From assembly GCA_019454045.1 (NCBI GenBank), contig SKCR01018459.1:434001-498000 (forward strand): a stretch of 64,000 bases of DNA, in the 5' to 3' direction. Of this stretch, positions 9,600-60,008 are shown one piece after another. The notes below the pieces were generated by a model that was not told where the DNA came from, ran no database searches, and saw only the letters and a list, made by a program, of their open reading frames with translations. Position numbers and translations under genes: made by a program. The stretch is from Zanthoxylum bungeanum. Lineage: Eukaryota > Streptophyta > Magnoliopsida > Sapindales > Rutaceae. Numbering within the stretch: the stretch's first letter is position 1; each line of letters begins with the position of its first letter.

Positions 9600-10990
9600 C
9601 TGGGGTATGGGTTTATGATCTCACCTAATAAAGATGTTAATCTTATTGAGGAATACGAACTGACTACGTATGAGGAAGTGATACAAGGTATCGACTCCCT
9701 ATTATGGCAAGTGCCATGATGTCCGAAATGGATTCCATGTATATCAACTACGTTTGGATACTAGTTGATATACCGCAAGGCATTGTGCCTATTGGTACTG
9801 TATAAGTCTTCAAGGAAGACATACATGGAAGGCAACATACCAACGTACTAAGCTAGGCTTATAGCGAAAAGGTATCATTATCAACATTGTGTCGATTACA
9901 ACGAAATCTTTTACCTGCTGCCATGGTAAATCCATTTGGATAATGCTTGCTGGTGCTGCATGTTTCATTCATGAAATATGTCAGCTAAATGGAAAATCAT
10001 TTTCCTTAAAAGGAAACCTTTTGGAGGATGTTTACAACATCCTGACAGTTTTGTCGTACAAAAATAGCAAACAAGGTTTGCAGGTTATTCGATCCATGTA
10101 TGGATTGAAACAAGCATGGGTTCTCGGAACTATCGTTTTGATGTAATCATAATGGAATATGATTTAATTCAAAACCAAAATGATTTTTGTGTATATAAGG
10201 AGGTTAGTGGGAGCGCACTGATAGTAAATGTCCTGTATAATAATGACATATCATTTCTTGGAAATGACATTCCCATAAATACAATCGGTGAAAGCTTGGC
10301 TTTCATGAAAAAATTCTCCGTAGAATTCTTGGGAGAAACAACCTTTATTCTAGGAATAAGATCTACTGGGATAGATTTAAAGTTGTTGACACTCTCCGAG
10401 AAATCGTACATTAATAAATGTACGCGACCTGGTGTCTCATACGCTTTGAGCATATGGATTCACAATCGGGCCAATCCAAGTGATAGTCATTGGATTGATG
10501 TTAAGAACATCCTTTAGTATCTTATAGGAACTAATGATGCATTCCTATACTATGGAGAAGGAGAACTTGAAGTGATTGGGATCACCGTTGCAAGTTTCCT
10601 AACCGACAAAAACAACTATTAGTCACAAAATGGTACTATAAAGTTTGAATAACGGAATAGTGAGCTGGAAATCTTCCAAGCAAGATACTGTTACCGAATA
10701 AACAACAAAAGTGGATTATTGCTGCAGCTGAGGCAGCAATAGAAGCCTTCTGGATTGATTATAATCTAATTAGATTAGATAAAGTTATGTTAGCAGCTGA
10801 GCTAGGCTATAGCGCAGGCTAAAGAATTAATGGTCTCATCAACGATCCAGATATATACTTCGACTATTCATCTGATTCGTTCGGATCATACATCACGGCG
10901 ATGTGATGATCGAATAAATCGCATCAGATGATAATCATGCAAATCCGCTGACGAAAGCCTTTCCTCAGCAATTTGAGCGAACCATACATA
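9600..10990 (+). pseudogene. decayed copia reverse transcriptase and RNase H of A1
   Basis: Recognisable pieces include DVNLIEEYELTTYEEV near 9632, the KARLVAK equivalent near 9855, IRSMYGLKQAW near 10090-10120, the degraded YVDD equivalent near 10228-10250 and the RNase H region near 10690-10750. A TAA at 9803-9805 interrupts the GCKWVFK-like motif. About 50-60 residues between the thumb and the CTRPDVSYA-like motif are deleted at about 10418. Both defects are shared with A2. Two residual frames (9889-10146 and 10116-10517) are remnants, not separate genes. Confidence 0.8.
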
Positions 10991-19530: not shown

Positions 19531-22270
19531 GAGTTTACTATTGCAATTTAGAACTTCTAAGATCTATGAAATAGATCAATGAAGATCCTTCAATTTCAAT
19601 ATCATACTATAAGGATTTAATCCTTAATTCTGACTAAGAAATTAAGGAGTCTATTTGGCAAGCTTATTGGATTAAGCATTTAAGTTATCATCACATGAAT
19701 CTTCCAAAGATCATGCTCTACTATTTGCTCAACTCCGGGCTTAGGCTTAAGATGTTATTTTATCAAATAAAGTAACTTATTAGTTTTCAAGACTATCCTG
19801 AAGTTTATTCCCAATTTGAAAATTAAAGTCGTTTAAATACATTTTCACCCAAGATTATGTTTTAAACACTAATCTTTCAATTTATCTTGATTCTAATAGT
19901 CCAACTATTTAATCAACGATTTTAGGTACTATTGATTATAATGATTACTATAGTCTAACTATATAATCAACTATAATTAAATTGATTAAATTCAATTATA
20001 TTGATTACTATAATCCAATTATAAAATCAACTATTAATTGAAATTAGTTTATTCAAATATATTGATTACTATAATCCAATTATATAATCAACTATAAATG
20101 AAATAGTTTGAATACAGTCCAACTAATTTAAAACAACTATTAAATATTAGTCCAACTAATATATTAATTGTATTGACGAATAATTTGAATGAGCGCGTAT
20201 GGCAAGTAACTAAACGAATATTGCAAATTTAATACTTGCCTCCCACTATTTTTCGGCGAGCCTCTAACCCTCTGTGGAGTACTCGGGAAACCTTGTTTCC
20301 TAGTGGGCTAGGATCCCGTTAAATAACACACAATCTTGACTTTGGCCAACAAATTGTATGATAATTAACTAGGTAGATCTCTAAGATCAATTGGATCCCA
20401 TCCAATTTCTAGATCCAGTAGGTGGACATCCAAGTCCGAAACATATATCTTATATATGTCAATATATCCAATATATTGCCTAACCTTTTTCCTCTGAATC
20501 AACTAAGCCTTGGCTTTGGCACAACAAACTTAGTGATCCTAGTTAAGCGGAACCCATTGACCATGGAAAGCTTCGTAATCAATGTCGATGGACAAGAAGT
20601 GATCTTGACTTTGGCCAACAAATCACAACTTGGACAAGACACCGATATGGAACAAAGCCTTCGTGATTCAAACACATCCGCGACGGACAAAAGTCTTGAC
20701 TTTGGCCAACAAACCAATGCCAGTCTTGGATCTTGAGTAAGAATCACTCAATGGAAGGAAAAACGCTTATATATGTTGAGGGTTTTTCGCGTGCAATTGG
20801 CAACCAATTAATTATCTTGTTAAGGTCTCATCATCATACACCCTTAAACATGCATTCTAAACACATAATAAGGTGCATATAAATAAATAATAATGATATG
20901 CGGATGGATACTTTAACATATTGTTCCTAGAACAAATCTCTCCATTTCCTCTCTCCCGCTAGCACATGTATTACTTCTACCCGTTACATAACACTTCTAA
21001 AGAAACCTCATTTACATTGAGGGGAATAGGTGAGAAGAGAAATACAAAGAGTAAGGAGGTAATAGGCTGGACACGCAGGTCCAATTTAATAAATTCTAAA
21101 TTTATTACAACAATTTCCAAAATTGCCCCACCCATCTAATATCCATCTGATATACATTATTCATGCATCGCAACCATGTATTCACACAAGCATGTTATCA
21201 ATCAATCTAATCCAATTAATTAATCTGATAATTAATGACCATCCAATGTTCAAACAACGATTTGATTTTGTGCGAGTCAAACTCGTTTTGCGAATAAGTA
21301 CTCAAAGTACGAATTCTTGAATTAAATTAAACTACAACATTAAATCCAATTTAATATGTATTTAATACTAATTCACTATTTAATTAATTCCAAATAAATA
21401 TTACACTTTATAAATAAACCTTTACGACTTAGATTCCAAATCTAATCGTTACGGGTCTCAAAGCCCGATTAACATCCAATGTTAATTTAATTTAAAGTCC
21501 AATGGGCTTTTAATTAATTTCTAAGGCATGGACTTTTGGTCAATATGGGTCAAACCCAAATACCAAAGCCCATTTAAGGAATCACCCTTATTTGCCAAGA
21601 AACCAATTTAGGCCCATTAGGCCCAATTAAAGTTAAAGGTCCATTAGTCATAATTGGACTTTATGGTTATGGTTTTGGGTCCAATTGGATCCAACCAATT
21701 TGCCTAAACCAATCTTGGTACAACCAAGTCCATTAAACCCAATTACAACTTTTCAAGCCCAATTCCAAATTTGGCCCAACATAATTAAATTTCAAAATTC
21801 CAATTTCACAATTTAATTACTCAAAGTGTAATGCCATAATTAATCACCCAAATTAACATTTCTAAAACATCAATTTACATAATTAATTATGCTTATTATC
21901 TTCAAAACATGTCCAACACATTTTAATCAAAAATCAAACCCATTTCATGCTTACACACTCACGGCAATTTGGGGTTTTTCATGTCCTATTCGGTTTCAAT
22001 CCAATTAAATCCACAATCAACATTCCCAAATGATTTCAACTCAACCAATGAATCAAAAAACAAAAAATCACTATGAATTAGGGTATTGTTCATTCTCGGC
22101 AAGCCTAAAAAATTGGGGAAAAAATGATCCAATCAAATTTCATGAAATTGATCATGCACAACTTCAATTAAACATCATTCAAGCATACTCAATCAAATAA
22201 TTTCATCAAATCATGCTCAAATTGATTTTACCCAATTTTAACCCTAAGTTTAAGTTTCATGCTCAACTCG
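19531..22270 (-). other. long non-coding leader of A2
   Basis: This is collinear with the A1 leader. It holds the AT-rich tandem repeat at 19880-20112, GCCAAAG motifs between 20335 and 20710, and the GCCCAA-rich segment at 21480-21790. No coding function is supported. Confidence 0.7.
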
Positions 22271-30356: not shown

Positions 30357-30549
30357 ACTCCTGATGAGTGGTAAATCTATCACTATTTCCCACTCATTTA
30401 ACCTAATATTTTGTATGGTTTCTTGAGTTTTGTGAACGTTTTGATATGTTTTGTATTATTTTGTAGATAAATAAAGTTTCAGGACATTCTGGAGGTGATT
30501 TGGGCCAAAACAGCGAAAATTGGACGAAAAGGGCATTTCAGTAAATTGT

Positions 30550-31145
30550 CCGCGTCGCGACGCCAGGCCTTCAGCGTCGCGACGCCTAACGTGCGCCGAA
30601 CAGTGCTAACGTGCGCCGGGTCCACAAATCAGAATCTGAGAAAAGTTTGACTTTGCTAAAATGCGCCGTGGCACGTGTCACCATCACAGCCGATCTGCTA
30701 ACATACGCCGTGCCACGTGTCAGCATCCTACGGTGCCGACAGTCATCATAGCCACGTTTGCCACGTGTCATCCTACGTGTCTCCATGTCATCAGCCACGT
30801 CAGCAAGTCAACAAGTCAACATTGCCACGTGTCGTGCCACATCATCATCAGCCAATCAGGAAGTGCCACGTGTCGCAATCCTACGGTGCTGACACTCTCT
30901 TTCCCACGTCAGCGCCACGTCAGCATTAATAATTGAGTATCTAATCCTTATCTGACACGTGGCGGATAAGAATCTCCTCGACCAATCAGAAGCCGCCACG
31001 TGTCACAATAATTGAAGCCCAACAACCTCGCCACGTGTCACCTTATCAGCTTATCCAGAATCTTCAAACCGGCGAACCAGAGCGTGCCACGTCGACAAAA
31101 GCTGGCGTAGCGACGCTGAAGGCCCTGGCGTCGCGACGCTGGAAG
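30550..31145. repeat. inverted repeat of about 36 bp bounding the G-box cluster
   Basis: GCGTCGCGACGCCAGGCCTT then CAGCGTCGCGACGCC near 30552-30588 is matched, inverted, by GGCGTAGCGACGCTGAAGGC then CCTGGCGTCGCGACGC near 31104-31138. Each arm itself contains the palindrome GCGTCGCGACGC. Confidence 0.8.
30672..31037. promoter_or_regulatory. cluster of eight G-box (CACGTG) sites in the F2 LTR
   Basis: CACGTG occurs at 30672, 30714, 30762, 30826, 30867, 30956, 30997 and 31032, mostly as GCCACGTGTC, the ABRE/G-box form bound by plant bZIP and bHLH factors. Additional CCACGTCAGC half-type sites lie between (about 30794, 30903, 30914). Function as an enhancer is inferred from motif density. Confidence 0.7.
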
Positions 31146-31457
31146 CCTACCGAGGCCTATAAATTGAGCTCGAGATTTCAGAATTCAGTGCACCATTCTC
31201 TCCCATTTCTTTGATTTAAATAAGGAGTCTTCTCTCTCTAAGTTTCTTTTAATTTTTAGTTTTTAGTTTTGTAATAATTTTAATTACTTTTTGTAATAAT
31301 AGTAATTTACTTTCTTTACTTTTTACAGTTTTTACTATTCACCATGAGGAGGTAACTTCCCCAGCTAGAGTGAAAGGTAATTCTTTTACTATTGCTATTT
31401 AGATTAACCTTCCTTAAAAATAATATATTCACTATTTAAAATATTGACTTAAAAATG

Positions 31458-31655
31458 ATACCGTTATATTGGTCGGTTGGTAATTTAATCTTAATCTGGT
31501 TTAAACCTGACTATTCAAGGATACCGCCAAATTGGTCGGTTGGTAATTTAATTTTGGTTCCGCCTTTATGGTTGGTTTATGGACAAATATTACCGCCTTA
31601 ATGGCTGGTTGAACTTAATTTGACTTAATCAGGATACCGCCAGATTGGTCGGTTG
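31458..31655 (+). repeat. five spaced ACCGCC...GGTTGG motifs in the F2 LTR
   Basis: ATACCGTTATATTGGTCGGTTGG and four variants (for example ATACCGCCAAATTGGTCGG) recur every 30-60 bp. The same five-motif block is at 42706-42890 and 48948-49130 in F1. Each can fold as ACCG...CGGT. Confidence 0.75.
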
Positions 31656-33159
31656 GTAATATTATCACGAGTTTATATATTATTTTATGGGAGATATCTA
31701 AATTAGTAGTAGTAAAAGTAATTCCTTTTACCTTAGCATTTTATTTTATTATAATTTACTTTTCAGTATTTACTTTACCGCATTTTTACTTTATGTCTTT
31801 TATTTTCAAGTTTTTTACTAGCCCTAGTTATGTGTTGTAACTAAATTAGTTATCTGGGGTTGTGATGAAATCTAATATCACCATTTTATAAGGGTTAGAT
31901 TATAGCTTGGGTAATATAAAAGTTTATTTATTGAGTCTTAATCTTAATGTTTTTTCATTAACTGGCCATTAATAAAATTGATCTGGTAAATCTAAAATGA
32001 ACTAGACATAGAGATTTTAGGTTTCAGCCTTAGACTCAATAGCCCACGATCTTCCTTGAGGATAGATAACCCTTTAATAGATTTCCTTATAGGATAGGAA
32101 TATACCTGTCGGGCGGGGGTAGTCATAATTGGAACTTAAACTTAATGAATCCAAATAATTTGGTTGACATAGACATATGGTTCAATTGGGTTAAACTGGG
32201 TATTTGTGTCTGACCATCGACATAGGCTTACACATAATTTAGTGTTCCAGGTTAATAAATCAATATATTACCCAACTTTAAGATAACCACTTCATCTTTA
32301 AAATGATATTGGAAGAAATCACAACCCTATATAGTTTTTAATATTGAATTTTCTTAAAACCTATTTTCGACAATTTTATTTACTTGCTTTTAAATTTAGA
32401 ATCGTCACCATTTCAAATAAATCAATCAACATGTTAGATACTAGTAATCATTTGACCTCATAAAATTAATAGTTTTGATATTAAGTCCTCGTGGGATCGA
32501 TATTTTTATACTACTTGAACGATACGTGCGTTTGCGTTATACGTGTGTGTTTACGCCGGTCAACTCCTAAAAACATTACATCCTTTGGTTGAATTTATGA
32601 GGAGGATCACATATTGAAGGAAAATTCGAGTTTTGGAAAAATAATTCATCAAGATTTCTAGGGTTATTCTAAAATAAATATTTCTTTTTATTTTATTTTC
32701 AATTCTTTATTTAAAGAACTAAATTGATTGTTAAGGCTATGATATAACCTAGACATGAACTCTCAATATTATCCAATCATGCTGATTTTATGATTTTCCA
32801 TTTTATTAAAAATTAATTGTACTATGATTATTGATAATTCGAGTTTGATGTTTAGTTACCATTATTCATGAATTAGCAAGTTTGATGCCAATAAAGGTAA
32901 ATGTTATATCCGTTTGGGTTTTACCTTCGTGCCATCAAAACAAGAATAACTAATCATAGATGCTATATGGATTAGAGTTTGTGTTTCATAAATTTTAATG
33001 GATTTTTTATGTTGATAATTTACTTAGATACATGCCGTAAAGAATTTTCATGTTTGAATATTTTTGATGTCACCAAATGACATGAAACTGAATAGGGAAA
33101 TTGATCATCACAATGAGGAATTATTTGAGATTATTATGTTACGTTTGTTAAGAGGGATT

Positions 33160-41819: not shown

Positions 41820-43714
41820 TGATGAGTGATAATTATATCACTATTTCCCACTCATTTAACCTAATATTTTGTATAGTTTATCGAGTTTTATGAACGTTTT
41901 GATGTGTTTTTTGTTTCTTTCGCAGATAAAAATAATATTGGGACTTAATGGAATCAACTCGGGGCTAAAATGATGAAATCCGGAGAAAAAAAGTCAAAAA
42001 CAAAAATTTACTGTACGCGTCACAAAGTGCAGTCCTAAATTTCAGTTTTGCGCAATTTTGGTATTTTGGCCATAACGTTTTCATCTGATATCCGATTGAG
42101 CTGATTCAAATTGCAGATTAACGAATACTCAAAGATCTACAGCTTTTAAATTTTAAATATTTTCTAATTCCAAATTTTTAAAGATCGAAATTAACGAATA
42201 ATCCAATGTGTTTTGTGTAATTACGAAAGACATTATCAAAAAAATAAAAAAAAATGGAAAATGACAATTTACAATTGTCAAACTTCCAAAAACATGCTTG
42301 CATGTTTGGTGGAGTGTTTTTTGGAGTGTCTTGTGGCATATTTGGTGGAGTGTTTGGTGGAGGATTTTGTGGAGTGTTTGGTAGAGTGTTTGGTGGAGCA
42401 ATTGGTGGAGAAATTGGTGGAAGCCTTTAGATTTTCCTATAAATACCAAGCCATTTCATTTGTAATTCTCATGCTTTCCTTAGGTTTTTGTAAGGAATTT
42501 AAGGATTGCTTCTTGTTTGTATTTATTTTTAGCATTTAAATTATGTATTTTAATTTTCAGTAATAGTAGTAGTTTCTTTTTCTTCTCTTCTCTTTTATGT
42601 TTAGTAGTTAGATTTCCGCTGGGGAAGGGTGAAGCTTTTATTATTTTAATTTAGATTAATCTCCCTTAATTATAATATGGAAATTATAATTCAAACTAAA
42701 AGGTTTACCGCCTTAATGGCTGATTTTATTTATTTGACATAATGTGACACCGCCTATATGGCCGGTCTTTAGGTGACAGATGATTACCGCATATATGGCT
42801 GATTTATGGATAAATAATGATACCGCCTTTATGGCTGGTTGGACTTAATTGGAAATCTGAGTTAATGAGGATACCGCTTATATGGTCGGTTGGTAATATT
42901 ACTGATAAATTTCATATTATAATAAGGGAGATTTCTAAATTTGAAGTAGTAAATGTGGATCCCATAACCCCCATATTTTATTTTTATTCTAGGAAAGTGA
43001 TGAAACACAATATTAACATGCTTAATAATTGATTTAATTATATTATGGGTAATTCTTTAGTTTGTTTATTGAGTCTTAAGTTTAATGCTTTTTGTTAACT
43101 GGCCATTACTAAGATTGATGTGGTAAACTTAAAATGAACTTGACGAATGAATTTTAGGTTTCAGTCTTAGATTCAATAGCCCACGATCTTCCTTGAGGAT
43201 AGATAACCCTTTAATAGATTTCCTTACAGGATAGACATATACCTGTCTGGCGGGGGTAGCCACTATTGGAACTTGAACTTAATGAATTCAGGTAACTTGG
43301 TTAACGTAGACATATGATTAATTAGGTTATTTGGGTGTTTGCATCTGACCATCGACAGAGGCTTTTGCATATCTTCGTGTTCCAGGTTATCAAACTGAAT
43401 GATTACACATATATAAGAAAATCAATATATCATTAGAATAATATTGGGTCGAGTCACAACCCTAGATATTTGTGTCTTTTATTTATTTTCCTTAGTATTT
43501 TATTTTGTGTTTTTATTTATTTATTTAATTAGCAAATCCACAATCAACCAACCAATCGAGCGAACATTATCTTCTCCCTCAATTAGATACCTATAAATAA
43601 ATAGTATCAATAATTAATAACAACAGTAGGAATTAAGTCCCCGTGGGATCGATATTTTTATACTACTTGAACGATACATGCGCTTGCGTTATACGCGTGT
43701 GATTACGCCGGTCA
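41820..43714 (+). repeat. 5' LTR of F1
   Basis: This 1895-bp LTR carries a minisatellite at 42304-42421 and five ACCGCC motifs at 42706-42890. It is repeated at 47766-49958, which contains an extra TRIM. Confidence 0.95.
42304..42421 (+). repeat. 12-bp minisatellite TTTGGTGGAGTG in the F1 5' LTR
   Basis: About nine degenerate units of TTTGGTGGAGTG. The corresponding part of the 3' LTR (48584-48668) has fewer units, so the copy number changed after insertion. Confidence 0.85.
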
Positions 43715-43720
43715 AGTTTT

Positions 43721-43738
43721 TGGCGCCGTTGCCGGAGA
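43721..43738 (+). other. primer binding site (tRNA-Asp) of F1
   Basis: TGGCGCCGTTGCCGGAGA, six bases after the LTR, is complementary to the 3' end of plant tRNA-Asp except for one base near its end. This is the usual Athila/Tat primer site. Confidence 0.92.
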
Positions 43739-43847
43739 CTTATTTTTCTTGAGTTATTAATATTGAAGCTATCTAATTTACTTGTATCTAATTTTCTTTT
43801 TATCTGTAATTTTTATTTCCTTCTCTTATTTTTCAGGTGGTTAAAAA

Positions 43848-44345
43848 ATGGAACATTTTTTGGAGATTGAGAGATTACGAGCTTTACTAGAAGAGGATAC
43901 ACCCCAAATATGGAAGCAACAGTCCATTTTTCCGAGGTCTGTTGTCCAACCCAACAATTATCACTGGATGTCAGAACCAAGCAATACTATTTTTGCTCAA
44001 CAAAATGCAATGGTGAGATGTGTAATATGTGATGGTAACCACTCGAGCGATCAATGTATATACCTTTCAAAGTGGCAGAATTATCGGAATCATTCAAGGT
44101 ACGAAGAACAAACATATTTCACTAACTCATATTCTCCATCTTATCCACCATCCACCTACGATATTCATCAAGAACCAGAACCATCAGAGGAAGATCAAAT
44201 GATTGACATTCTCAAAGATTGTTTCAAGAAGCAAGATGAAAATTTGGATACAATGCTTGAATCAGTCCAAAATCAATTCGAAGGTATTCAGAGACAATCA
44301 GCATCCATTAAGAGGCTGACAGAACAAACGAGACAATTAACATAA
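43848..44345 (+). CDS. gag-like protein of F1 with CCHC-type knuckle
   Basis: A 165-residue ORF begins 133 bp after the LTR. CVICDGNHSSDQC (residues 58-70) is a Cys-x2-Cys-x3-His-x4-Cys knuckle like those in Athila gag proteins, where it binds RNA. The C-terminal third (about 115-165) is Glu/Gln-rich and helical in character, ending SIKRLTEQTRQLT. Compared with a normal Athila gag of several hundred residues it lacks the N-terminal retrotransposon-gag domain. It is a truncated or remodelled gag rather than a full capsid protein. An in-frame TAA ends it; similar acidic sequence continues in another frame downstream. Confidence 0.65.
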   Translation: MEHFLEIERLRALLEEDTPQIWKQQSIFPRSVVQPNNYHWMSEPSNTIFAQQNAMVRCVICDGNHSSDQCIYLSKWQNYRNHSRYEEQTYFTNSYSPSYPPSTYDIHQEPEPSEEDQMIDILKDCFKKQDENLDTMLESVQNQFEGIQRQSASIKRLTEQTRQLT

Positions 44346-44429
44346 AATCAGAGCTACATACCTCAATTAGCATTTTCAGATGACACTGATGAAGCCTTCG
44401 AGTACTAAGCATTTAACGATGACACTTTA

Positions 44430-45133
44430 ACTGAGGAAGAGGTGAGCAGTATCAACAACCAGAGGTATCAGTTCAGGAGCCCAAACCAGCAAAGTCTCAA
44501 TTTGATTTTTATTATTCAGACTCTGATGAGGATGAAGAAGCTGAGTTGTTTGTACCAACTGCATCAACAATTGAGGATGAAATTATGTAACCTCAAAATG
44601 AAGATCTTGGAGCATGTATTGCAATGTTGTTTGAAGAAGAACTACCCATACCAACCACAGAGGATAAAAACTTACAGACAGAGACATCTTTACATCCTCC
44701 AGTTGAAGATCTTGGAGCATTCATTGCACAAATATTTGAAGAAGATCTATCTGAGCCAGTCACATCAACCTCAGAGAATGAAGACCTAAAATCAGACACA
44801 TCTTTCTATCCTCAGGTTGACAATTATGATGCATGCATTTCACAGATGAAAAATGAAGAGTTGAACAAGGAAATTTTAAAATACATTTGTGGAGAAAAGG
44901 CGGAGGAAGAAACAGAGCAAATGGAGGAGCAAATGAAAGACGAAATGGAAGAACTTGAGCATTCAAGAGAAACATCACTGTTTTGGGGAGTACAAATTAA
45001 ATATATCGCCCAAAAGCTTGACAGAATGGAACTTCCATTCCAAGTCAAACACCATACGAGACCTCCTGATTTTCTTTGTTTCTTTTCAGGAACTGCTGTA
45101 ATGACAAGTTTAAAAAGGCGGCACAAGTACTGA
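44430..45133 (+). pseudogene. acidic repeat ORF of F1, interrupted
   Basis: One frame carries QPEVSVQEPKPAKSQFDFYY, SDSDEDEEAELF, then a TAA at 44588-44590, then 169 open codons (44624-45133). Two copies of a roughly 37-residue unit are visible: EDLGACIAMLFEEEL...TETSLHPPV and EDLGAFIAQIFEEDL...SDTSFYPQV. The third, DNYDACISQMKNEELNKEIL, is weaker. The tail is a Glu-rich coiled-coil-like stretch followed by TSLKRRHKY. It may be the degraded C-terminal part of the F1 gag. I do not recognise a catalytic domain. Confidence 0.55.
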
Positions 45134-45772
45134 ATGAGACAAAATTCTTTTTGCCACTTTACAGTTGGAAGAGACCCTTCAAAAGCAACGCTCATGAGAT
45201 TGTCTTTAATCGGACATCTAAAACCACGCTGAAACCTCCTTGACAAATAGATTTCAGTCACGTCTGGCTGAAGACGAAAAATTTAGCGCTAGCAGGGAGG
45301 CAACCCATGCAATTTGTTGTAAATTCTATTTCTATATTTTATGTATACATGTTGTAGAGTTTTTAATATTGTGTGATATTTTTGTAGGGAAAAGCACAAA
45401 CGGAGCATTTTAAGACATAAGGAATGATGTTTGGCAATCACAAAGAAGATAGCTAATTCATTTGTGATGGCTGAGTAAAGAATGAATTCTTGAGACGCAT
45501 CTTGATGGGTTTATATACCAAACGAGTGGCGTATTGCGTACACAATTCTGTTGCCTTGATAATTGCTTTGATTTGCTTTTCTTTTGTTATTATCTTGATT
45601 TTCGCAGACAGGATCACGATTTCTTTTATTGTTTAGCTAACTAGCGTCCTTTGGAAGATACTAGTGCTATTATTATTCACCCTTTTTAGGTACTATAAAT
45701 TCAGCCTATCATTGCACTTTTGAAGGCATCCAGATTTGAGAGAAAAAATACATTAAAAAATAAAAGAAAAAA
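45134..45772 (+). other. F1 internal spacer
   Basis: No gene is seen. GCGCTAGCAGGGAGGCAACC at about 45281-45300 is a conserved non-coding block of Athila-type elements, usually found at the end of pol or before the env-like position. Confidence 0.6.
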
Positions 45773-46341
45773 ATGGAAGCCACTTCAAGAAGACTAGTTG
45801 AAAACATGTGTGTGTTTTGCGATACTAGTGTTGGTACTAAACCACAATACATAGAAGCAGCACATGAATTAGGTCGAGTCTCAGTTGAAAGGAATATGCA
45901 CTTAGTATACGGCGGAGGCAATCTTGGACTTATGGGGATCATTTCAAAGGTCGCACATGAAGGATGCAGTCCGGTTTTGGGAATCATCCCAAAACCCTTA
46001 GCGGAGGTGAATCTGATAGGTCCATCAAACGGAGAGGAATTGATCGTACCAGGAATGTCTGAGCGATTGGTGGAAACGATTAACCGTGCTGATGCTTTTA
46101 TTACTTTGCTAGGTGGCTTGGGCACATTGGAGGAAATTTTTATAGTATTATCATGGGCGAACTTGAACATACACCAGAAACCGCTGGACTGTACAACATT
46201 GATGAATTTAATGATTTTCTTTGTGTGTTTCTTAATGATGTCCGGAGAAATGAGTTCTTGTCAAAACCTGTAAAAGAACTCTTCTTTACTGCTAGAACTG
46301 TCCCAGATTTAATTGATCAGATCTTAGCCTTTGAACCATAA
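45773..46341 (+). pseudogene. LOG: captured LOG-like cytokinin-activating gene, intronless, one frameshift
   Basis: LOG enzymes (cytokinin riboside 5'-monophosphate phosphoribohydrolases) release active cytokinin bases from nucleotides. Reading from ATG 45773: MCVFCDTSVGTKPQYIEAAH (12-31), LVYGGGNLGLMGIISK (44-59), LGIIPKPL (69-76), MSERLVETI (95-103), LLGGLGTLEE (112-121), LSWANLNIHQKPL (126-138). A one-base loss near 46184-46188 shifts the frame. The other frame supplies GLYNIDEFNDFL and the C-terminus to a TAA at 46339. Catalytic Arg98 and Glu120/121 of the family motifs are kept, but the usual Lys after Arg is Leu99 and the Pro of PGGxGTxxE is Leu113. Plant LOG genes have several introns; none is present, which implies capture from mRNA. 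It lies in the same orientation as F1. Length (about 189 residues) is slightly under the 210-220 of plant LOGs. Confidence 0.88.
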
Positions 46342-47753
46342 ATTGACCCTATCCTTTCCAAGATAAAATGGTCCGAGGATGATCGTGGTAAGACGCGTCG
46401 GATAAATCTGGATCTTAATCTTTAATTCCCTTTCTAGATGTAGCATCATATTCTACTATTTCAGACATTTGGGACAATGTCTCATTTAGGTTTGGGGGAT
46501 GGGAAAAGTTAATAGTATCTTGTTTTTATTGTGTTATTTTTAGTCCAAATGTTTTTCGTAAAATACAAAAAAATTGAAAAATTTTACAAAAAATCAAAAA
46601 AATATTTTGTGTTTTTGTGTTTTTAATTTGATTAATCAGGCGAAATTGGTGTGAGATAGATGTGTAAGGAATTTCCACTCATGAGACGTATCTCAACCTA
46701 TTTCGGAACAAGTTAATTTTTGTTTATTTCCTTTTGAATTATTAATTTGTGAGTTCTCCATAAAACTGACTAAAATGGATATTCATATGCTCAGTTGACA
46801 GATATTATCAACATGCATGGTAACATACGGACATGAGCTGTAATTGAAAAGTTTGTAATATTCAGTTCTCTAGTTTAATTGGAAGAAGCATCTATAAATG
46901 GAAATGGAGTAAAAAAAAAAAGAAAAAAAAAGAGAAAAAATAGAAAAAAAATGTGAAAAAAAACGTCTGAGATCCGAGTTATTAAGTCTGTAAGGGTGTC
47001 TAAACACCTAGTGCCCTAAAACCAACTAGTTTTGGAGTCACTGGCCCAAAGCTCGCTACATGGATCAAAGATGTTGCAAAAATATATATATATATATCCG
47101 AAGTCTGAGTAATTAAGTCCGTAGGGGTGTCTTAACACATAGTGCCCTAAAGCCAACTGGTTTGGGAGCCACTGGCCCAAATCTCACTACATAGACGGAA
47201 GATATTGTATATAAATAAAAAAAATAAAAAATCAAAGAAAAAAATTAGCAAAAAAAAAAAAAATTATTCCATTGCTACAAAAAGGTGTGAATTCTGATAA
47301 AAATTTAGGACAAAAATATTACTCTCTTCTCAACTGCACTTGTGACTATTGTGGGTAAAATGAGTTGATTAATATTTTGTTGGTTGTGTATATGAAGAAT
47401 GGTAAAAATAATCGGAGAATTTACTTATTCGGTAATTTAGAAAGAAAGAAAACAACTATTAACTTGGAGTAGAAGTTTCACCTGTTTAGTCACTAACTTC
47501 TTTATTCTCTTATCTTTTTACTTTTATGTGCATTATTTTTAATATCTTTTTACTTTTATAAGAAGTTTGTGGGTATCGTCGCTGTAAACCCTCACGAGAC
47601 TACAACTCGTCCACTAAGGACACCTAGGGGTTTAAAGGCTTGTTGCATACGCTAAATGCAACCGTGATCCCTACGAAAGTGGCTTAGTTTAATTTTAATT
47701 ATTATTTTTTGCATTTTATTTTGTTATTTTGCTCGAGGACTAGCAAAATGTTA
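46342..47753 (+). other. F1 3' internal non-coding region
   Basis: Contains an Athila-type GACAATGTCTCATTTAGG then TTTGGGGGATGGG block (46474-46505), A-rich tracts (46908-46962, 47215-47275), a duplication of about 110 bp (46973-47208) and the conserved GCTCGAGGACTAGCAAAATG at 47731-47750. No coding region is supported. Confidence 0.7.
46973..47208 (+). repeat. direct duplication of about 110 bp in F1
   Basis: Copies at about 46973-47079 and 47098-47208 share TTAAGTC, TAGTGCCCTAAA and CCAACT followed by CACTGGCCCAAA and a trailing GAT(G/A)TTG, separated by an AT run. Confidence 0.85.
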
Positions 47754-47765
47754 GGTTTGGGGGTG
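47754..47765 (+). other. polypurine tract of F1
   Basis: GGTTTGGGGGTG lies directly before the 3' LTR, as in Athila/Tat elements. Confidence 0.88.
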
Positions 47766-49958
47766 TGATGAGTGGTAATTATTGTTGAGGAAAATATCCC
47801 ACATCGGCTGAGATAAACAATTAAACTCAAAATATAAACATTGGGCAACCTTCAATTCTCAAGCTGGCTTTTGGGTTGAGTTAGGCCCATGAATTTCAAT
47901 ATGGTATCAGAGACACACTCATGCACGGGTGGGCCCACACTACCTGTCCACGTGACATGAACCAGGCAAAAGACCGGTTTGCACGTGAGGGGGAGTGTTG
48001 AGGAAAATATCCCACATCGGCTGAGATAAACAATTAAACTCAAAATATAAACATTGGGCAACCCTCAACTCTCAAGCTGGCTTTTGGGTTGAGTTAGGCC
48101 CATGAATTTCAATAATTATATCACTATTTCCCACTAATTTAACCTAATATTTTGTATAGTTTATCGAGTTTTATGAATGTTTTGATGTGTTTTTGTATAT
48201 TTTACAGATAAAAATAATATTGGGACTTAATGGAATCAACTCGGGGCTAAAACGATGAAATCCGGAGAAAAAAAGTCAAAAACGAAAATTTACTGTACGC
48301 GTCACAAAGTGCAGTCCTAAATTTCAGTTTTGCGCAATTTTGGTATTTTGGCCATAACGTTTTCATCCGATATCCGATTGAGCTGATTCAAATTTCAGAT
48401 TAACGAATACTCAAAGATCTACAACTTTTAAATTTTAAATATTTTCTAATTCCAAAATTTTCAAGACCGAAATTAACGAATAATCCAATGTGTTTTGTGT
48501 AATTACGAAAGTCATTATAAAAAAAAAACAAAAATGGAAACTGACAATTTACAATTGTCAAACTTCCACAAAACATGCTTGCATGTTTGGTGGAGTGTCT
48601 TGTGGCATGTTTGGTGGAGGATTTTATGGAGTGCTTGGTGGAGCAATTGGTGGAGAAATTGGTGGAAGCCTTTAGATTTTCCTATAAATACCAAGCCATT
48701 CATTTGTAATTCTCATGTTTTCCTTAGGTTTTTGTAAGGAATTTAAGGATTGCATCTTGTTTGTATTTATTTTTAGCATTTAAATTATGTATTTTAATTT
48801 TCAGTAATAGTAGTAGTTTCTTTTTCTTCTCTTTTCTTTTATGTTTAGTGGTTAGATTTCCGCTGGGGAAGGGTGAAGCTTTTATTATTTTAATTTAGAT
48901 TAATCTCCCTTAATTATAATATGGAAATTAAAATTCAAACTAAAAGGTTTACCGCCTTAATGGCTGATTTTATTTATTTGACATAATGTGACACCGCCTA
49001 TATGGCCGGTCTTTAGGTGACAGATGATTACCGCATATATTGCTGATTTATGGATAAATAATGATACCGCCTTTATGGCTGGTTGGACTTAATTGGAAAT
49101 CTGAGTTAATGAGGATACTGCCTATATGGCCGGTTGGCAATATTACTGATAAATTTCATATTATAATAAAGGAGATTTCTAAATTTGAAGTAGTAAAGAT
49201 GGATCCCATAACCACAGTATTTTATTTTTATTCTATGGAAGTGATGAAACACAATATTAACATACTTAATAATTGATTTAATTATATCACGGGTAATTCT
49301 TTAGTTTCTTTATTGAGTCTTAAGCTTAATGCTTCTTGTTAACTGGCCATTAATAAGATTGATGTGGTAAACTTAAAATGAACTTGACGAAGGGATTTTA
49401 GGTTTCAGCCTTAGATTCAATAGCTCACGATCTTCCTTGAGGATATATAACCCTTTAATAGATTTCCTTACAGGATAGACATATACCTGTCGGGCGGGGG
49501 TAGCCACTATTGGAACTTGAACTTAATGAATTCAGGTAACTTGGTTAACATAGACATATGATTAATTGGGTTATTTGGGTGTTTGCATCTGACCATCGAC
49601 AGAGGCTTTTGCATATCTTCGTGTTCCAGGTTAGCAAACTGAATGATTACACATATATAAGAAAATCAATTCATCATTAGAATAATATTGGGTCGAGTCA
49701 CAACCCTAGATATTTGTGTCTTTTATTTATTTTCCTTAATATTTTCTTTTGTGTTTTTATTTATTTATTTAATTAGCAAATCCAAAATCAACCAACCAAT
49801 CAAGCGAACATTATCTTCTCCCTGAATTAGATACATGTAAATAAATAATATCAATAATTAATAACAACAGTAGGAATTAAGTCCTCGTGGGATCAATATT
49901 TTTATACTAATTGAACGATACGTGCGCTTGCGTTATACGCGTGTGATTACGCCGGTCA
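47766..49958 (+). repeat. 3' LTR of F1, carrying a TRIM
   Basis: Starts TGATGAGTGGTAATTAT, is interrupted at 47783-48111 by a TRIM, then continues ATTATATCACTATTTCCC to the end ACGCCGGTCA. Excluding the insertion it is close to the 5' LTR. Confidence 0.93.
47783..48111 (+). mobile_element. TRIM (terminal-repeat retrotransposon in miniature), 329 bp
   Basis: Two near-identical 116-bp LTRs (47783-47898 and 47996-48111) begin TGTTGAGGAAAATATCCCAC and end CATGAATTTCA. Between them are an iMet primer site TGGTATCAGAGAC (47902) and a polypurine tract GAGGGGGAG before the second LTR. No coding capacity. TAATTAT stands on both sides (47776-47782 and 48113-48119, one extra A at the right). The F1 5' LTR is empty at this site. 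Confidence 0.95.
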
Positions 49959-53182: not shown

Positions 53183-54932
53183 TGTTGGGGTTTCGGGCGA
53201 TGAGCGCATCAGAAGCGCGGTTCGGGCGAAATCATAATTTAAAGCTTTTTCAAATTATCGAATAAATTATTCAATATCTAATATGAATAATTTATTCATA
53301 TTTCACCTAAACCTATTTATACGATATCAAATAACGATATAAATATATATGAAATGTCGCGAAACTCTTACGAAAATGTTTTTCCGCAAAATGACGCAAA
53401 ACAGGTTTTTGACCGAACCAACCACCCAATACTTATGAAGACTACCCAGGTCAGCCCCAATAGTGTTAGGGAAGTTCATGGGCTGCCCGAACAGTGACAA
53501 ATTCACTATTTGGACACCCGTCACCCGGTAGGCTCAAAAGTCACCCGATAACGCCGTTTTTGGCCGTTTTCGCTTATTTCAACTCCGAAACACTTTCTGG
53601 TTGTTCCAACTCCCAAAAAACATCCAATACATTCATATGACATCAAATACATCACAAAGTTTCTAGTTTTTCCAGAACTGATCCAGAAACCGAAATTACC
53701 AAATTTCATGCTTTAAATCCAATTTTCAAGATTAATCCACAACACCAATCAAAGTTACCACACATGAAGCACCCAAGAACAATTATAGGCATTACAAGAG
53801 TGGTCATAACACTCTAGAATTGCAACATGTCATCTAATGAACAATTTGGATAAATATTATAATAATACTACCAAATCTACTTCACACATGCATAATACTT
53901 ACATCTCCATCCACCACAACCAAAAACCCCAAATTTAAGAAATAAATAAACCCTAGAACCATTATAATAACTCCAGAAAACAAGAAAAAAATTTCCAAGC
54001 CCATGAATATTTAGGATTACCTTTAATCTTCAATTTTCTAAGCCTTTTTTCTTAAATTTTTCTTTGTTTTCTTCATGGTTTGATCAAACAAACCCTATGG
54101 CTTTTCTTTTGTGAAGTTTCAGCTTTGGTGGAGTAACAAGTGAAGAAGAAATTTTTTTCTCTTTTTTGAATCATCAAAACCAACTTTAGGGGGCAAAATT
54201 GCCCTTTTGGCAATTTAATCAAATTAAATTATAATTAACTTTATGATAACCAATCAAATTAGCACACATAAAGTATAGTTAAATCATGCCATATGTTCCA
54301 ATAATAATTGGACAAATTTCATAACACTTATGAAAAATGTTTATTAATTAATCATTTAAATATTTAACAATTAAATATCCAAATAATCAATTAATATAAT
54401 TATTATTATATATGTATTTTTATTTACAATAAATAAAAAATACATATATTTATGGCATGTGTCAAAATCTCATTCGACGAATAATTAATGTGTATCTAAT
54501 CGAATTATCTATCAAATACATATACACAATAATTACGATTGACTAAAATTGCCCCTATGTATGTGTTATCGTTTAACCGATTAAACGATTCGAATAAACT
54601 CATTAAATCCAATGAAGTATTATGAATAATCTGTATTATTCATATCGCGTTGCCCGAGTACTCAACGAGTACACTTCATATTGTGGGACTCTCTAAGTTT
54701 AGATTTATCCGTCATGAAATCCAATTTCGTGTCACTAATTCACCCACTCATGAATTATGACGACCACATATAATCTCTAAACTATGCAAGCCGAGGTCAT
54801 TGCATACATATAATCCCTCCGTCACATGCTATTCATATTATACCTGGGATATAGATGAGAACGTCAAATCCGTTCGGTATAATATAGTCGACTTTCAATT
54901 TACGATTTCTAAATAACACTCGGAACTGATTT
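53183..54932 (-). repeat. 5' LTR of element D, truncated
   Basis: Begins TGTTGGGGTTTCGGG and follows 38231-39993 closely until CGGAACTGATTT, where family-E sequence takes over. Its last 450 bp (from 54481) also form the first part of tandem unit 1. Confidence 0.88.
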
Positions 54933-57900
54933 GTAACATCTTGCCTTAGCAGTGATGTTACCGGCAGGAGACAGACTAAACCCACTCCATAAGCCTCTGA
55001 TTCTAGAAAAATTTCGACATGATGTATTTGTAACATCATGCAACTTGGCCTATAGCCAGAATCCATAAACTGTTGGACAATTATGACCCATAACATCACT
55101 ATTTGTACAGATCATGGTGTTATTGTATAATTTAACTATATGACAAAGGAAATTGCTCTTTCATCATTTGTAATTAGATTACCAATATGTATAAATGATA
55201 AAAGGTCCTTATGATTAGTTCCGGATTGAGATGATATGAGACAGTATCAATCCACGAAGGTTTAATCATTAAATATCCCTAGTCGTAGTATTATCGAGAT
55301 TGGACATCGATAATGCGGAATAGACTAGTATTACACTTGTGCGCGTTGTGGGAGCATAACAACATAGTTCTCATATATTTGGGTATTGGATACTCATGCA
55401 AGTGTAATAGGAGGTTGTGTTTACCGATGGTACAGAAACAACTTCTCTCTGGATAGACCCCTCAGAATTCCATTGGTAGTATGACTATATGTCTATGGAA
55501 GTCCGAATCAGGGTATGTGTATTTGGTCTTAACCTGAGACTTGCACCGCTAATACTTGCGACAATCAATATACTTTATTTTTGATCGTCCAGGGCTTTAA
55601 CAGGTTCTGTGTACGCCTCTTCTAGGTATATTGAGAATCGTAGTGTATTGGGTGTGATGTCGAGATGGAAGTATCACTCCAGTCATAGTGGAGATGATGA
55701 TCACGTAGGATACAGAACTGGTGCTCTTTTATGCTGCAGCTATCGGGATATTATGACTAGGTCATGTTTATGCGATTATAGAGACTAGTTACCAAAGATC
55801 CGATATGTGCTTCGTACGGGGCATACAAAATTCCAGCCCCAGGCCTAGCACTTGACATCCGAATAATTAATGTGTATCTAATCGAATTATGTATCAAATA
55901 CATATACACAATAATTACGATTGACTAAAATTGCCCCTATGTATGTGTTATCGTTTAACCGATTAAACGATTCGAATAAACTCATTAAATCCAATGAAGT
56001 ATTATGAATAATCTGTATTATTCATATCGCGTTGCCCGAGTACTCAACGAGTACACTTCATATTGTGGGACTCTCTAAGTTTAGATTTATCCGTCATGAA
56101 ATCCAATTTCATGTCACTAATTCACCCACTCATGAATTATGACGACCACATATAATCTCTAAACTATGCAAGCCGAGGTCATTGCATACATATAATCCCT
56201 CCGTCACATGCTATTCATATTATACCTGGGATATAGATGAGAACGTCAAATCCGTTCGGTATAATATAGTCGACTTTCAATTTACGATTTCTAATAACAC
56301 TCGGAACTGATTTGTAACATCTTGCCTTAGCAGTGATGTTACCGGCAGGAGACAGACTAAAACCCATCTCCATAAGCCTCTGATTCTAGAAAAATTTCGA
56401 CATGATGTATTTGTAACATCATGCAACTTGGCCTATAGCCAGAATCCATAAACTGTTAGACAATTATGACCCATAACATCACTATTTGTACAGATCATGG
56501 TGTTATTGTATAATTTAACTATATGACAAAGGAAATTGCTTTTTTATCATTTGTAATTAGATTACCAATATGTATAAATGATAAAAGTCCTTATGATTAG
56601 TTCCGGATTGAGATGATATGAGACAGTATCAATCCACGAAGGTTTAATCATTAAATATCCCTAGTCGTAGTATTATCGAGATTGGACATCGATAATGCGG
56701 AATAGACTAGTATTACACTTGTGCGCGTTGTGGGAGCATAACAACATAGTTCTCATATATTTGGGTATTGGATACTCATGCAAGTGTAATAGGAGGTTGT
56801 GTTTACCGATGGTACAGAAACAACTTCTCTCTGGATAGACCCCTCAGAATTCCATTGGTAGTATGACTATGTGTCTATGGAAGTCCGAATCAGGGTATGT
56901 GTATTTGGTCTTAACCTGAGACTTGCACCGCTAATACTTGCGACAATCAATATACTTTGTTTTTGGTCGTCCAGGGCTTTAACAGGTTCTGTGTACGCCT
57001 CTTCTGGGTATATTGAGAATCGTAGTGTATTGGGTGTGATGTCGAGATGGAAGTATCACTCCAGTCATAGTGGAGATGATGATCACGTAGGATACAGAAC
57101 TGATGCTCTTTTATGCTGCAGCTATCGGGATATTATGACTAGGTCATGTTTATCCGATTATAGAGACTAGTTACCAAAGATCCGATATGTGCTTCGTACG
57201 GGGCATACAAAATTCCAGCCCCAGGCCTAGCACTTGACATCCGAATAATTAATGTGTATCTAATCGAATTATGTATCAAATACATATACACAATAATTAC
57301 GATTGACTAAAATTGCCCCTATGTATGTGTTATCGTTTAACCGATTAAACGATTCGAATAAACTCATTAAATCCAATGAAGTATTATGAATAATTTGTAT
57401 TATTCATATCGCGTTGCCCTAGTACTCAACGAGTACACTTCATATTGTGGGACTCTCTAAGTTTAGATTTATCCGTCATGAAATCCAATTTCGTGTCACT
57501 AATTCACCCACTCATGAATTATGACGACCACATATAATCTCTAAACTATGCAAGCCGAGGTCATTGCATACATATAATCCCTCCGTCACATGCTATTCAT
57601 ATTATACCTGGGATATAGATGAGAACGTCAAATCCGTTCGGTATAATATAGTCGACTTTCAATTTACGATTTCTAAATAACACTCGGAACTGATTTGTAA
57701 CATCTTGCCTTAGCAGTGATGTTACCGGCAGGAGACAGACTAAACCCATCTCCATAAGCCTCTGATTCTAGAAAAATTTCGACATGATGTATTTGTAACA
57801 TCATGCAACTTGGCCTATAGCCAGAATCCATAAACTGTTGGACAATTATGACCCATAACATCACTATTTGTACAGATCATGGTGTTATTGTATAATTTAA

Positions 57901-60008
57901 CTATATGACAAAGGAAATTGCTCTTTTATCATTTGTAATTAGATTACCATATGTATAAATGATAAAAGGTCCTTATGATTAGTTCCGGATTGAGATGATA
58001 TGAGACAGTATCAATCCACGAAGGTTTAATCATTAAATATCCCTAGTCGTAGTATTATCGAGATTGGACATCGATAATGCGGAATAGACTAGTATTACAC
58101 TTGTGCGCGTTGTGGGAGCATAACAACATAGTTCTCATATATTTGGGTATTGGATACTCATGCAAGTGTAATAGGAGGTTGTGTTTACCGATGGTACAGA
58201 AACAACTTCTCTCTGGATAGACCCCTCAGAATTCCATTGGTAGTATGACTATATGTCTATGGAAGTCCGAATCAGGGTATGTGTATTTGGTCTTAACCTG
58301 AGACTTGCACCGCTAATACTTGCGACAATCAATATACTTTGTTTTTGGTCGTCCAGGGCTTTAACAGGTTCTGTGTACGCCTCTTCTGGGTATATTGAGA
58401 ATCGTAGTGTATTGGGTGTGATGTCGAGATGGAAGTATCACTCCAGTCATAGTGGAGATGATGATCACGTAGGATACAGAACTGGTGCTCTTTTATGCTG
58501 CAGCTATCGGGATATTATGACTAGGTCATGTTTATCCGATTATAGAGACTAGTTACCAAAGATCCGATATGTGCTTCGTACGGGGCATACAAAATTCCAG
58601 CCCCAGGCCTAGCACTTGACATCCGAATAATTAATGTGTATCTAATCGAATTATGTATCAAATACATATACACAATAATTACGATTGACTAAAATTGCCC
58701 CTATGTATGTGTTATCGTTTAACCGATTAAACGATTCGAATAAACTCATTAAATCCAATGAAGTATTATGAATAATTTGTATTATTCATATCGCGTTGCC
58801 CGAGTACTCAACGAGTACACTTCATATTGTGGGACTCTCTAAGTTTAGATTTATCCGTCATGAAATCCAATTTCGTGTCACTAATTCACCCACTCATGAA
58901 TTATGACGACCACATATAATCTCTAAACTATGCAAGCCGAGGTCATTGCATACATATAATCCCTCCGTCACATGCTATTCATATTATACCTGGGATATAG
59001 ATGAGAACGTCAAATCCGTTCGGTATAATATAGTCGACTTTCAATTTACGATTTCTAAATAACACTCGGAACTGATTTGTAACATCTTGCCTTAGCAGTG
59101 ATGTTACCGGCAGGAGACAGACTAAACCCATCTCCATAAGCCTCTGATTCTAGAAAAATTTCGACATGATGTATTTGTAACATCATGCAACTTGGCCTAT
59201 AGCCAGAATCCATAAACTGTTGGACAATTATGACCCATAACATCACTATTTGTACAGATCATGGTGTTATTGTATAATTTAACTATATGACAAAGGAAAT
59301 TGCTCTTTTATCATTTGTAATTAGATTACCAATATGTATAAATGATAAAAGGTCCTTATGATTAGTTCCGGATTGAGATGATATGAGACAGTATCAATCC
59401 ACGAAGGTTTAATCATTAAATATCCCTAGTCGTAGTATTATCGAGATTGGACATCGAGAATGCGGAATAGACTAGTATTACACTTGTGCGCGTTGTGGGA
59501 GCATAACAACATAGTTCTCATATATTTGGGTATCGGATACTCATGCAAGTGTAATAGGAGGTTGTGTTTACCGATGGTACAGAAACAACTTCTCTCTGGA
59601 TAGACCCCTCAGAATTCCATTGGTAGTATGACTATGTGTCTATGGAAGTCCGAATCAGGGTATGTGTATTTGGTCTTAACCTGAGACTTGCACCGCTAAT
59701 ACTTGCGACAATCAATATACTTGTTTTTGGTCGTCCAGGGCTTTAACAGGTTCTGTGTACGCCTCTTCTGGGTATATTGAGAATCGTAGTGTATTGGGTG
59801 TGATGTCGAGATGGAAGTATCACTCCATTCATAGTGGAGATGATGATCACGTAGGATACATAACTGGTGCTCTTTTATGCTGCAGCTATCGGGATATTAT
59901 GACTAGGTCATGTTTATCCGATTATAGAGACTAGTTACCAAAGATCCGATATGTGCTTCGTACGGGGCATACAAAATTCCAGCCCCAGGCCTAGCACTTG
60001 ACATCCGA
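54481..60008. repeat. four head-to-tail 1382-bp units of chimeric LTR sequence
   Basis: Units are 54481-55862, 55863-57244, 57245-58626 and 58627-60008, each exactly 1382 bp by these borders and nearly identical. Each unit has a D LTR piece in minus orientation (about 450 bp), a family-E end fragment with hairpin GTAACATC...GATGTTAC (about 140 bp) that includes inverted ACTTGGCCTATAGCCAG like the family-A polypurine region, and the first roughly 790 bp of a family-A LTR in plus orientation. The repeat junction is ...CATCCGA|ATAATTAATG, where the two parents share only CGA. Frames of 63-99 codons repeated here are LTR sequence, not genes. Confidence 0.95.
54933..55070 (-). mobile_element. family-E LTR end fragment at the D/A junction
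   Basis: GTAACATCTTGCC...GATGTTACCGGCAGG reads on the minus strand like the E end at 27340-27379 (CCTGCCGGTAACATC...GATGTTACA, with AGAGGCT upstream). It is repeated in all four units. Confidence 0.7.

Follow-up and report, generated by a model that had tools for sequence, protein, structure and literature searches.

A broken LOG-family frame in a pol-less gypsy element of Zanthoxylum bungeanum, probably a dead copy of a long-carried retrotransposon gene

The window analysed here, the whole stretch of 64,000 nucleotides from contig SKCR01018459.1 of Zanthoxylum bungeanum, contains an intronless but broken frame of the LOG family, which lies in sense orientation in a pol-less gypsy element (Table 1). 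We read this frame as a dead copy of an accessory gene long carried by an Athila-like gypsy lineage, and put the probability of this reading, mechanism included, at about 70%. The gene would derive from a spliced LOG transcript and would encode a nucleotide 5'-monophosphate phosphoribohydrolase. Owing to the changed side-chain pocket, this enzyme would prefer other substrates than host LOGs do. It would be expressed from the element RNA at the place of a retroviral env gene, together with an NABP-like protein, and would help the element by acting on the growth state or the nucleotide pools of the host cell. Pol-less elements would be copied by proteins from pol-bearing ones.

Genes captured by plant retrotransposons have often been taken for passengers, but the retrotransposon-borne LOG (retro-LOG) looks like a useful part of the element. 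The interest rests on the family: a LOG-type gene with signs of long purifying selection, by which it was apparently kept, a systematically changed pocket, and a virus-type partner gene in the pol-bearing relatives. The question whether retrotransposon genes can have a direct effect on the host thereby becomes testable.

Table 1. Coordinates of the window element, its parts, and the NABP-like frames of five related loci.
Feature	Sequence	Coordinates	Strand	Remarks
Whole pol-less LTR retrotransposon	window	41820..49958	+	8139 bases including nested insertion; LTR ends TG...CA; LTR pair by self-BLAST
5' LTR	window	41820..43714	+	BLAST match to 3' LTR 94.3%
Primer-binding site region TTTGGCGCCGTTGCCGGAG	window	43719..43737	+	from sequence directly 3' of 5' LTR
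gag-like frames, short and broken	window	43845..45237	+	tblastn to L027 frames; common to other pol-less copies
LOG-like frame, broken (frameshift and stops)	window	45773..46425	+	open relatives encode 217 aa
Polypurine tract region GTTTGGGGGTG	window	47755..47765	+	from sequence, ahead of 3' LTR
3' LTR	window	47766..49958	+	interrupted by nested small element
Nested TRIM-like small element	window	47783..48114		two 119-base terminal repeats, 98.3% alike, within 3' LTR
NABP-like frame	L019	3897-4409		oriented with LOG on +
NABP-like frame	L011	3907-4404		oriented with LOG on +
NABP-like frame	L010	3898-4398		oriented with LOG on +
NABP-like frame	L022	3922-4407		oriented with LOG on +
NABP-like frame	L023	3914-4411		oriented with LOG on +

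The element and its LOG-like frame

Profile searches place the broken frame in the LOG family, as the initial annotation had proposed, with matches to PF03641 (1.8e-19) and TIGR00730 (4.6e-32). NF058542, the NCBI equivalog model for LOG itself, is matched with 82 bits, below its cut-off of 300. Among solved structures, the best matches are At2g37210 (top) and At5g11950, both from Arabidopsis. All motifs previously read in the frame, LVYGGGNLGLMG, LGGLGTLEE and MSER, are present. A LOG-like C-terminus had been described behind a single one-base frameshift; a one-base length difference does occur at about 46.18 kb, but stops interrupt the frame as well, one of them coinciding with the end of the earlier interval (46341). 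The C-terminal tail runs on past this stop to 46425, leaving the earlier end 84 bases short. The window copy is almost certainly dead.

The frame has no introns and lies inside the LTR element, downstream of the gag-like region and upstream of the polypurine tract, all of which agrees with the initial annotation. Neither of the two outcomes named there as refuting it, a frame outside the LOG family or an intron-bearing gene outside any LTR element, was obtained. A host gene or an assembly chance as its source is ruled out by the LTR context and the copy number. The LTRs, a primer-binding site and a purine tract are present, and no pol was found, which places it with the non-autonomous LTR elements of the TR-GAG or LARD type. 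The flanking pentamers (AATAT and CATAT) agree at four of five positions. The K2P distance of the LTR pair is 0.041 over 1850 sites, presumably about 1.5 to 3 million years at the rates of rice and Arabidopsis. In seven other elements the LTRs differ by 0.030 to 0.065, with matched LTR stretches that are partial in some.

The gag-like frames of the window element gave no Pfam match above the cut-off. The corresponding frames of L027 were matched by tblastn in 15 of the 21 loci, counting L012, where the match lies elsewhere in the locus, and L019, where it is partial (2083-2379). Gypsy-type gag, protease, RNase H and integrase are present in relatives and not in the window copy; the protease match of L019 is below the Pfam cut-off. 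The earlier description of a pol-less, Athila-like element is upheld. The Athila label itself is our assumption, made from the look of gag and protease and from the primer-binding site, which fits tRNA-Asp, a feature we take to be usual in Athila. Steinbauerova and colleagues reportedly named LOGL4 in two Athila-like elements in 2011.

Elsewhere in the window, positions 30362-32563 hold a diverged piece akin to the LTRs of the LOG element (about 79% to 94% in parts), possibly a solo LTR. Positions 54478-60008 are taken up by a tandem array (period about 1382 bases, copies about 99% alike), and stretches related to it occur on both strands at other places in the window. Scans of the 64-kb window with Rfam and for tRNAs found no match.

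Copies and carrier types in the genome

The assembly searched comprises 3.96 Gb in 51,709 contigs. A 29-base LOG motif (at most three mismatches) occurs at 21,149 places, and its reversed control at none. A DNA search with the 569-base window interval gave 11,325 candidates, of which 40 were scored; each aligned over at least 564 of the 569 bases, at 100% identity for the window copy and 89% to 91% for the others. The claim that the LOG frame multiplied with its element is upheld. Twenty further copies were fetched with 8 to 10 kb and 19 more as short pieces. When an open LOG frame was searched by BLAST against these pieces and the window, 44 matches were obtained. The 41 that are full length count in the window copy and a second copy in L028; the second copy in L014, type B in L015 and type C in L025 were set aside as partial or divergent. 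Six of the 41 full-length copies, which are best matches to the window copy and not a random draw, are open to codon 217, and 35 are broken. Copies with an open frame are thus present in the genome, in line with the initial annotation, which had suggested that others may be intact.

Carriers were typed at the 20 fetched loci and the window (21 loci with flanks). Five (L010, L011, L019, L022, and L023) are pol-bearing, with gag, protease, RNase H or integrase in differing sets, and have the order gag/pol-type domains, NABP-like frame (about 180 aa), LOG. Thirteen, including the window, are pol-less and have short gag-like frames upstream of LOG with no gag/pol-type domains between. L012, L021, and L026 fit neither type. 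L025 and L027 have a protease or RNase H match that falls outside the element, ahead of the 5' LTR stretch. In L012 (1827-3984, oriented with LOG on the plus strand), tandem repeats whose periods are about 43 and 86 bases precede an open LOG copy.

The pol-less carrier is probably a deletion derivative, judging from its gag-like frame, part of which resembles the gag C-terminal region of L019. The initial annotation held that a pol-less element had captured the gene. This is made improbable by the five loci in which LOG is accompanied by pol-type domains, and since such loci are present in the same genome, the pol-less element most likely inherited LOG rather than capturing it.

The NABP-like frames of L019 and L011 pass the curated cut-offs of both PF05515 (Viral_NABP) and PF01623 (Carla_C4), and at E<=0.01 these families are matched by 32 and 34, respectively, of 36 homologues. 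Named sources among the best 120 of 259 homologues are Populus, Xanthoceras, Acer, Orobanche, and Rhamnella. The frame is damaged in some copies; the last stretch of L019 is in another frame, and L022 and L023 contain stops. Searches of IMG/VR viral contigs with the NABP and LOG proteins found no relative. The model of the NABP-like protein is of low confidence (pLDDT 61, pTM 0.30).

The pairing of the two frames recurs in the genome. A 1455-base query spanning NABP to LOG was matched from end to end at 22 of 40 scored places, its own included (11,338 candidates). A 32-base NABP motif is found at 10,411 places (control 0), about half the LOG count, although the two patterns are of unequal stringency; it replaced an earlier, badly chosen pattern (883 places, control 7). 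Among the matches listed, LOG and NABP motifs are paired 838 to 845 bases apart on three contigs. L028 has a further NABP-LOG pair on the other strand, besides its pol-less element.

Active site, selection and ancestry

Arg99 and Glu122 have been proposed as the catalytic residues of CgLOG, and its proposed prenyl pocket includes Met96, His97, Lys100, Glu125, and Trp129 (PMC4979012). Six host LOGs and two Arabidopsis LOGs keep Arg99, Glu122, Trp129, Lys100, His97, and Glu125. Among homologues, counted in the best 120 of 2351 hits and hence with uneven sampling, Arg99 is kept in 110 (absent in 10), Glu122 in 117, and Trp129 in 117, whereas Lys100 is kept in only 13 (replaced in 107), His97 in 29 (replaced in 91), and Glu125 in 13. 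The six open copies show the same pattern. The PGGxGTxxE motif and the Glu are found in all six and the Arg in five, whereas the places of His97, Lys100, and Glu125 are taken in all six by Ser, Leu, and Ile or Thr. L015 is without the catalytic Arg in both of its LOG frames, and L011 has lost the neighbouring Met. Because the pocket residues are replaced, we file the protein as a LOG-family relative and not as a cytokinin-activating LOG.

The initial annotation had taken a Pro-to-Leu and a Lys-to-Leu change in the window copy as signs of altered or lost activity. The former, by which the window copy has lost the Pro of the motif, is not typical, since this Pro is kept in 12 of the 17 other loci (of 20) whose main frame is readable there. 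The latter is a trait of the clade rather than decay of one copy, and since the Lys is replaced in all six open copies and in most homologues, the change is old.

The retro-LOG protein may be no LOG enzyme at all, since alanine substitution of the AMP-binding and catalytic residues of CgLOG, apparently including Lys100, nearly abolishes its activity (PMC4979012). It might instead have been kept for a non-enzymatic role, as a pseudo-enzyme of LOG fold to which nucleotides or partner proteins bind, a reading that deserves serious thought, if on balance it is unlikely. The frequent loss of the pocket Lys and His would fit such a role, as would the C-terminus: among the scorable homologues (87 of the 120), those that lack the pocket Lys have an LxLxL-kind tail in 71 of 79 cases, and those that keep it in one of eight. 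Tails of the LxLxL type are EAR-like motifs and might recruit a corepressor. However, the phosphate-binding motif and both catalytic residues are conserved in most homologues and would be needless in a pure scaffold. The predicted structure of one homologue, P0003 (pLDDT 84.8), matches AtLOG3 2a33 (E 7e-19, 46% identity, rmsd 1.4), and a LOG fold is accordingly predicted for it.

Cytokinin activation like that of the host enzyme, which would promote division of element-carrying cells, is in our judgement unlikely. It would agree with the retention of the catalytic Arg and Glu in most homologues and with those that have kept the canonical Lys. These 13 (the P0062 group, P0032 to P0034 with P0117, and P0066) arise at the base of the retro-LOG clade or beside it when host LOGs are the outgroup, and P0032 to P0034, the P0062 group, and P0066 carry canonical MHxRK. 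In the window's own clade, however, other residues stand in for the His, Lys, and Glu of the proposed prenyl pocket. Certain plant LOGs have been shown to work instead as phosphohydrolases (PMC11593424), and activity is therefore not to be read from the sequence.

Signs of selection speak for the accessory-gene reading. Variants in the 41 copies were classed as private (one copy), in two or three copies, or widely shared (four or more). Private variants comprise 44 silent, 145 amino-acid-changing and 7 stop changes (44, 143, and 6 over slightly fewer columns), those in two or three copies 45, 87, and 9, and widely shared ones 52, 58, and 4; random mutation would give about 26%, 71%, and 4%. 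Silent changes are in excess among shared relative to private variants (52:58 against 44:145, Fisher p 3.4e-5). This contrast holds in the five pol-bearing copies alone (p 0.015) but is absent from the 13 pol-less ones (silent to changing, 51:92 private against 14:22 shared, p 0.70). The simplest reading is that selection acted while the lineage spread and was followed by neutral decay after insertion; it applies to the whole 41-copy sample, the pattern not being seen within the pol-less group.

The comparison of dN/dS between copies that the initial annotation had suggested gave 0.22 to 0.42 for the 15 pairs of open copies. Codon-model omega is 0.344 for these six; with stops masked, the 41 copies together give 0.525. 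Six pairs of type A (that of the window) with types B (L015) and C (L025) have dN/dS of 0.14 to 0.19, rough ratios at a dS of 1.2 to 1.4 that is near saturation, and type B against type C gives 0.28. NABP pairs among the five copies range from 0.24 to 0.95, the top value being between two copies with stops. The type B frame (L015, 2104-2772), a second LOG frame in which the catalytic Arg is replaced, occupies the place where the 5' LTR would be expected to end and continues into the primer-binding site, an arrangement that recombination might have produced. Type C (L025, 8950-9585) contains stops and was closest in the test to P0006.

These values bear on the idea of a neutral passenger, a LOG cDNA that was caught once and copied only through its seat in a successful element. 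The 35 broken copies and the missing contrast in the pol-less group are what it would predict. We consider it quite improbable in the face of the low dN/dS between type A and the divergent types, the silent excess in the full sample and in the pol-bearing copies, and the occurrence in several plants (among the best 120 of 2351) of relatives with 217 aa and a similar tail.

Host LOG genes were sought with the pattern MH(Q/E)RKAEM, which occurs at 26 places; 12 of these and one later addition were fetched, and all 13 match in separate exon-like pieces, as multi-exon genes do. A tree of 133 rows (three rows shorter than 150 aa were left out) places the window's group and its relatives in a clade of 113 rows (support 100/99) apart from canonical LOGs, and the six host LOGs included group with the two Arabidopsis LOGs outside it. 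The tree had been proposed as a means of finding the donor; it resolved the retro-LOG clade, but none of the six host LOGs placed falls within it. Another host gene, L060 (MHERK), was considered as a possible donor and rejected, its exons being only moderately like retro-LOG. Named relatives among the best 120 of 2351 are from Populus, Reevesia, and Paulownia. Database relatives were for the most part predicted on short contigs, which makes them probably intronless.

Since the retro-LOG clade is apart from the placed host LOGs and has relatives in other genera, the capture seems to predate this species' own elements. The initial annotation, if read as describing a fresh capture, fails on the same two grounds. 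Although the host has multi-exon LOG genes, a recent capture from one of them can hardly be correct given this tree with its six host LOGs, these relatives, and a dS of about 1.3 between type A and types B and C. Populus proteins annotated as LOGL10 and similar hypothetical proteins in the same clade may be retrotransposon frames, and such proteins need to be checked before LOG gene families are counted.

Relation to known systems

That gypsy elements can carry LOG-type domains had been published by 2022, in PMC9289625, which cites Steinbauerova et al. 2011 for it. A YgdH (LOG) domain is reported there in gypsy consensus sequences of Citrus sinensis and C. clementina and, without a filter, of Populus trichocarpa (PMC9289625). 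The expectation that a LOG gene in gypsy would be a notable case is to that extent anticipated. For the pairing of LOG with a viral-type frame, the copy number and the pocket change, we found no report in open-licence papers. Neither these papers nor the main text of PMC9289625 were found to mention an NABP-like frame in such elements. Extra-frame domains other than LOG have been named for Ogre, Retand, and Athila (PMC6317226).

Cysteine-rich proteins of carlaviruses have been described as silencing suppressors, and one of them as a transcription factor that causes hyperplasia (PMC12172455). If these roles were to carry over to the NABP-like frame, the two genes might form a host-manipulation cassette, in which a zinc-finger nucleic-acid-binding protein of the carlavirus type would suppress silencing or regulate growth, and a LOG-fold enzyme with altered specificity would act on cytokinin or on other N6-modified nucleotides. 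Shoot-tip cells would be pushed to division and off silencing, and transmission would increase. We hold this proposal to be speculative and doubtful; if true, the cassette would be to the retrotransposon what the hormone genes are to the T-DNA of Agrobacterium.

The gypsy elements of Citrus and Populus are alike in having a LOG-family domain inside a plant gypsy element. The section of PMC9289625 that describes them reports for LOG neither a selection test nor a copy number nor a pol-less carrier, whereas 21,149 motif places in 3.96 Gb are found here. The 2-ODD/AlkB frame of Phalaenopsis gypsy elements is likewise an enzyme gene of host type that has become fixed behind gag-pol as an additional frame; it encodes an RNA demethylase active in vitro (PMC9289625), whereas the present frame is of the LOG type and of putative activity. 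The NABP-like frame resembles the cysteine-rich or nucleic-acid-binding proteins of carlaviruses (PF05515, PF01623) in its Pfam matches above curated cut-offs, its basic stretch and its Cys cluster. It differs in being encoded in a retrotransposon, where its function is putative, and it is absent from the window copy. With the plant LOGs AtLOG3 (2a33) and AtLOG8 (1ydh), retro-LOG shares the predicted fold, the PGGxGTxxE motif and the catalytic Arg and Glu; unlike them, it is intronless and repeated, has an altered side-chain pocket and ends in an LxLxL-type tail.
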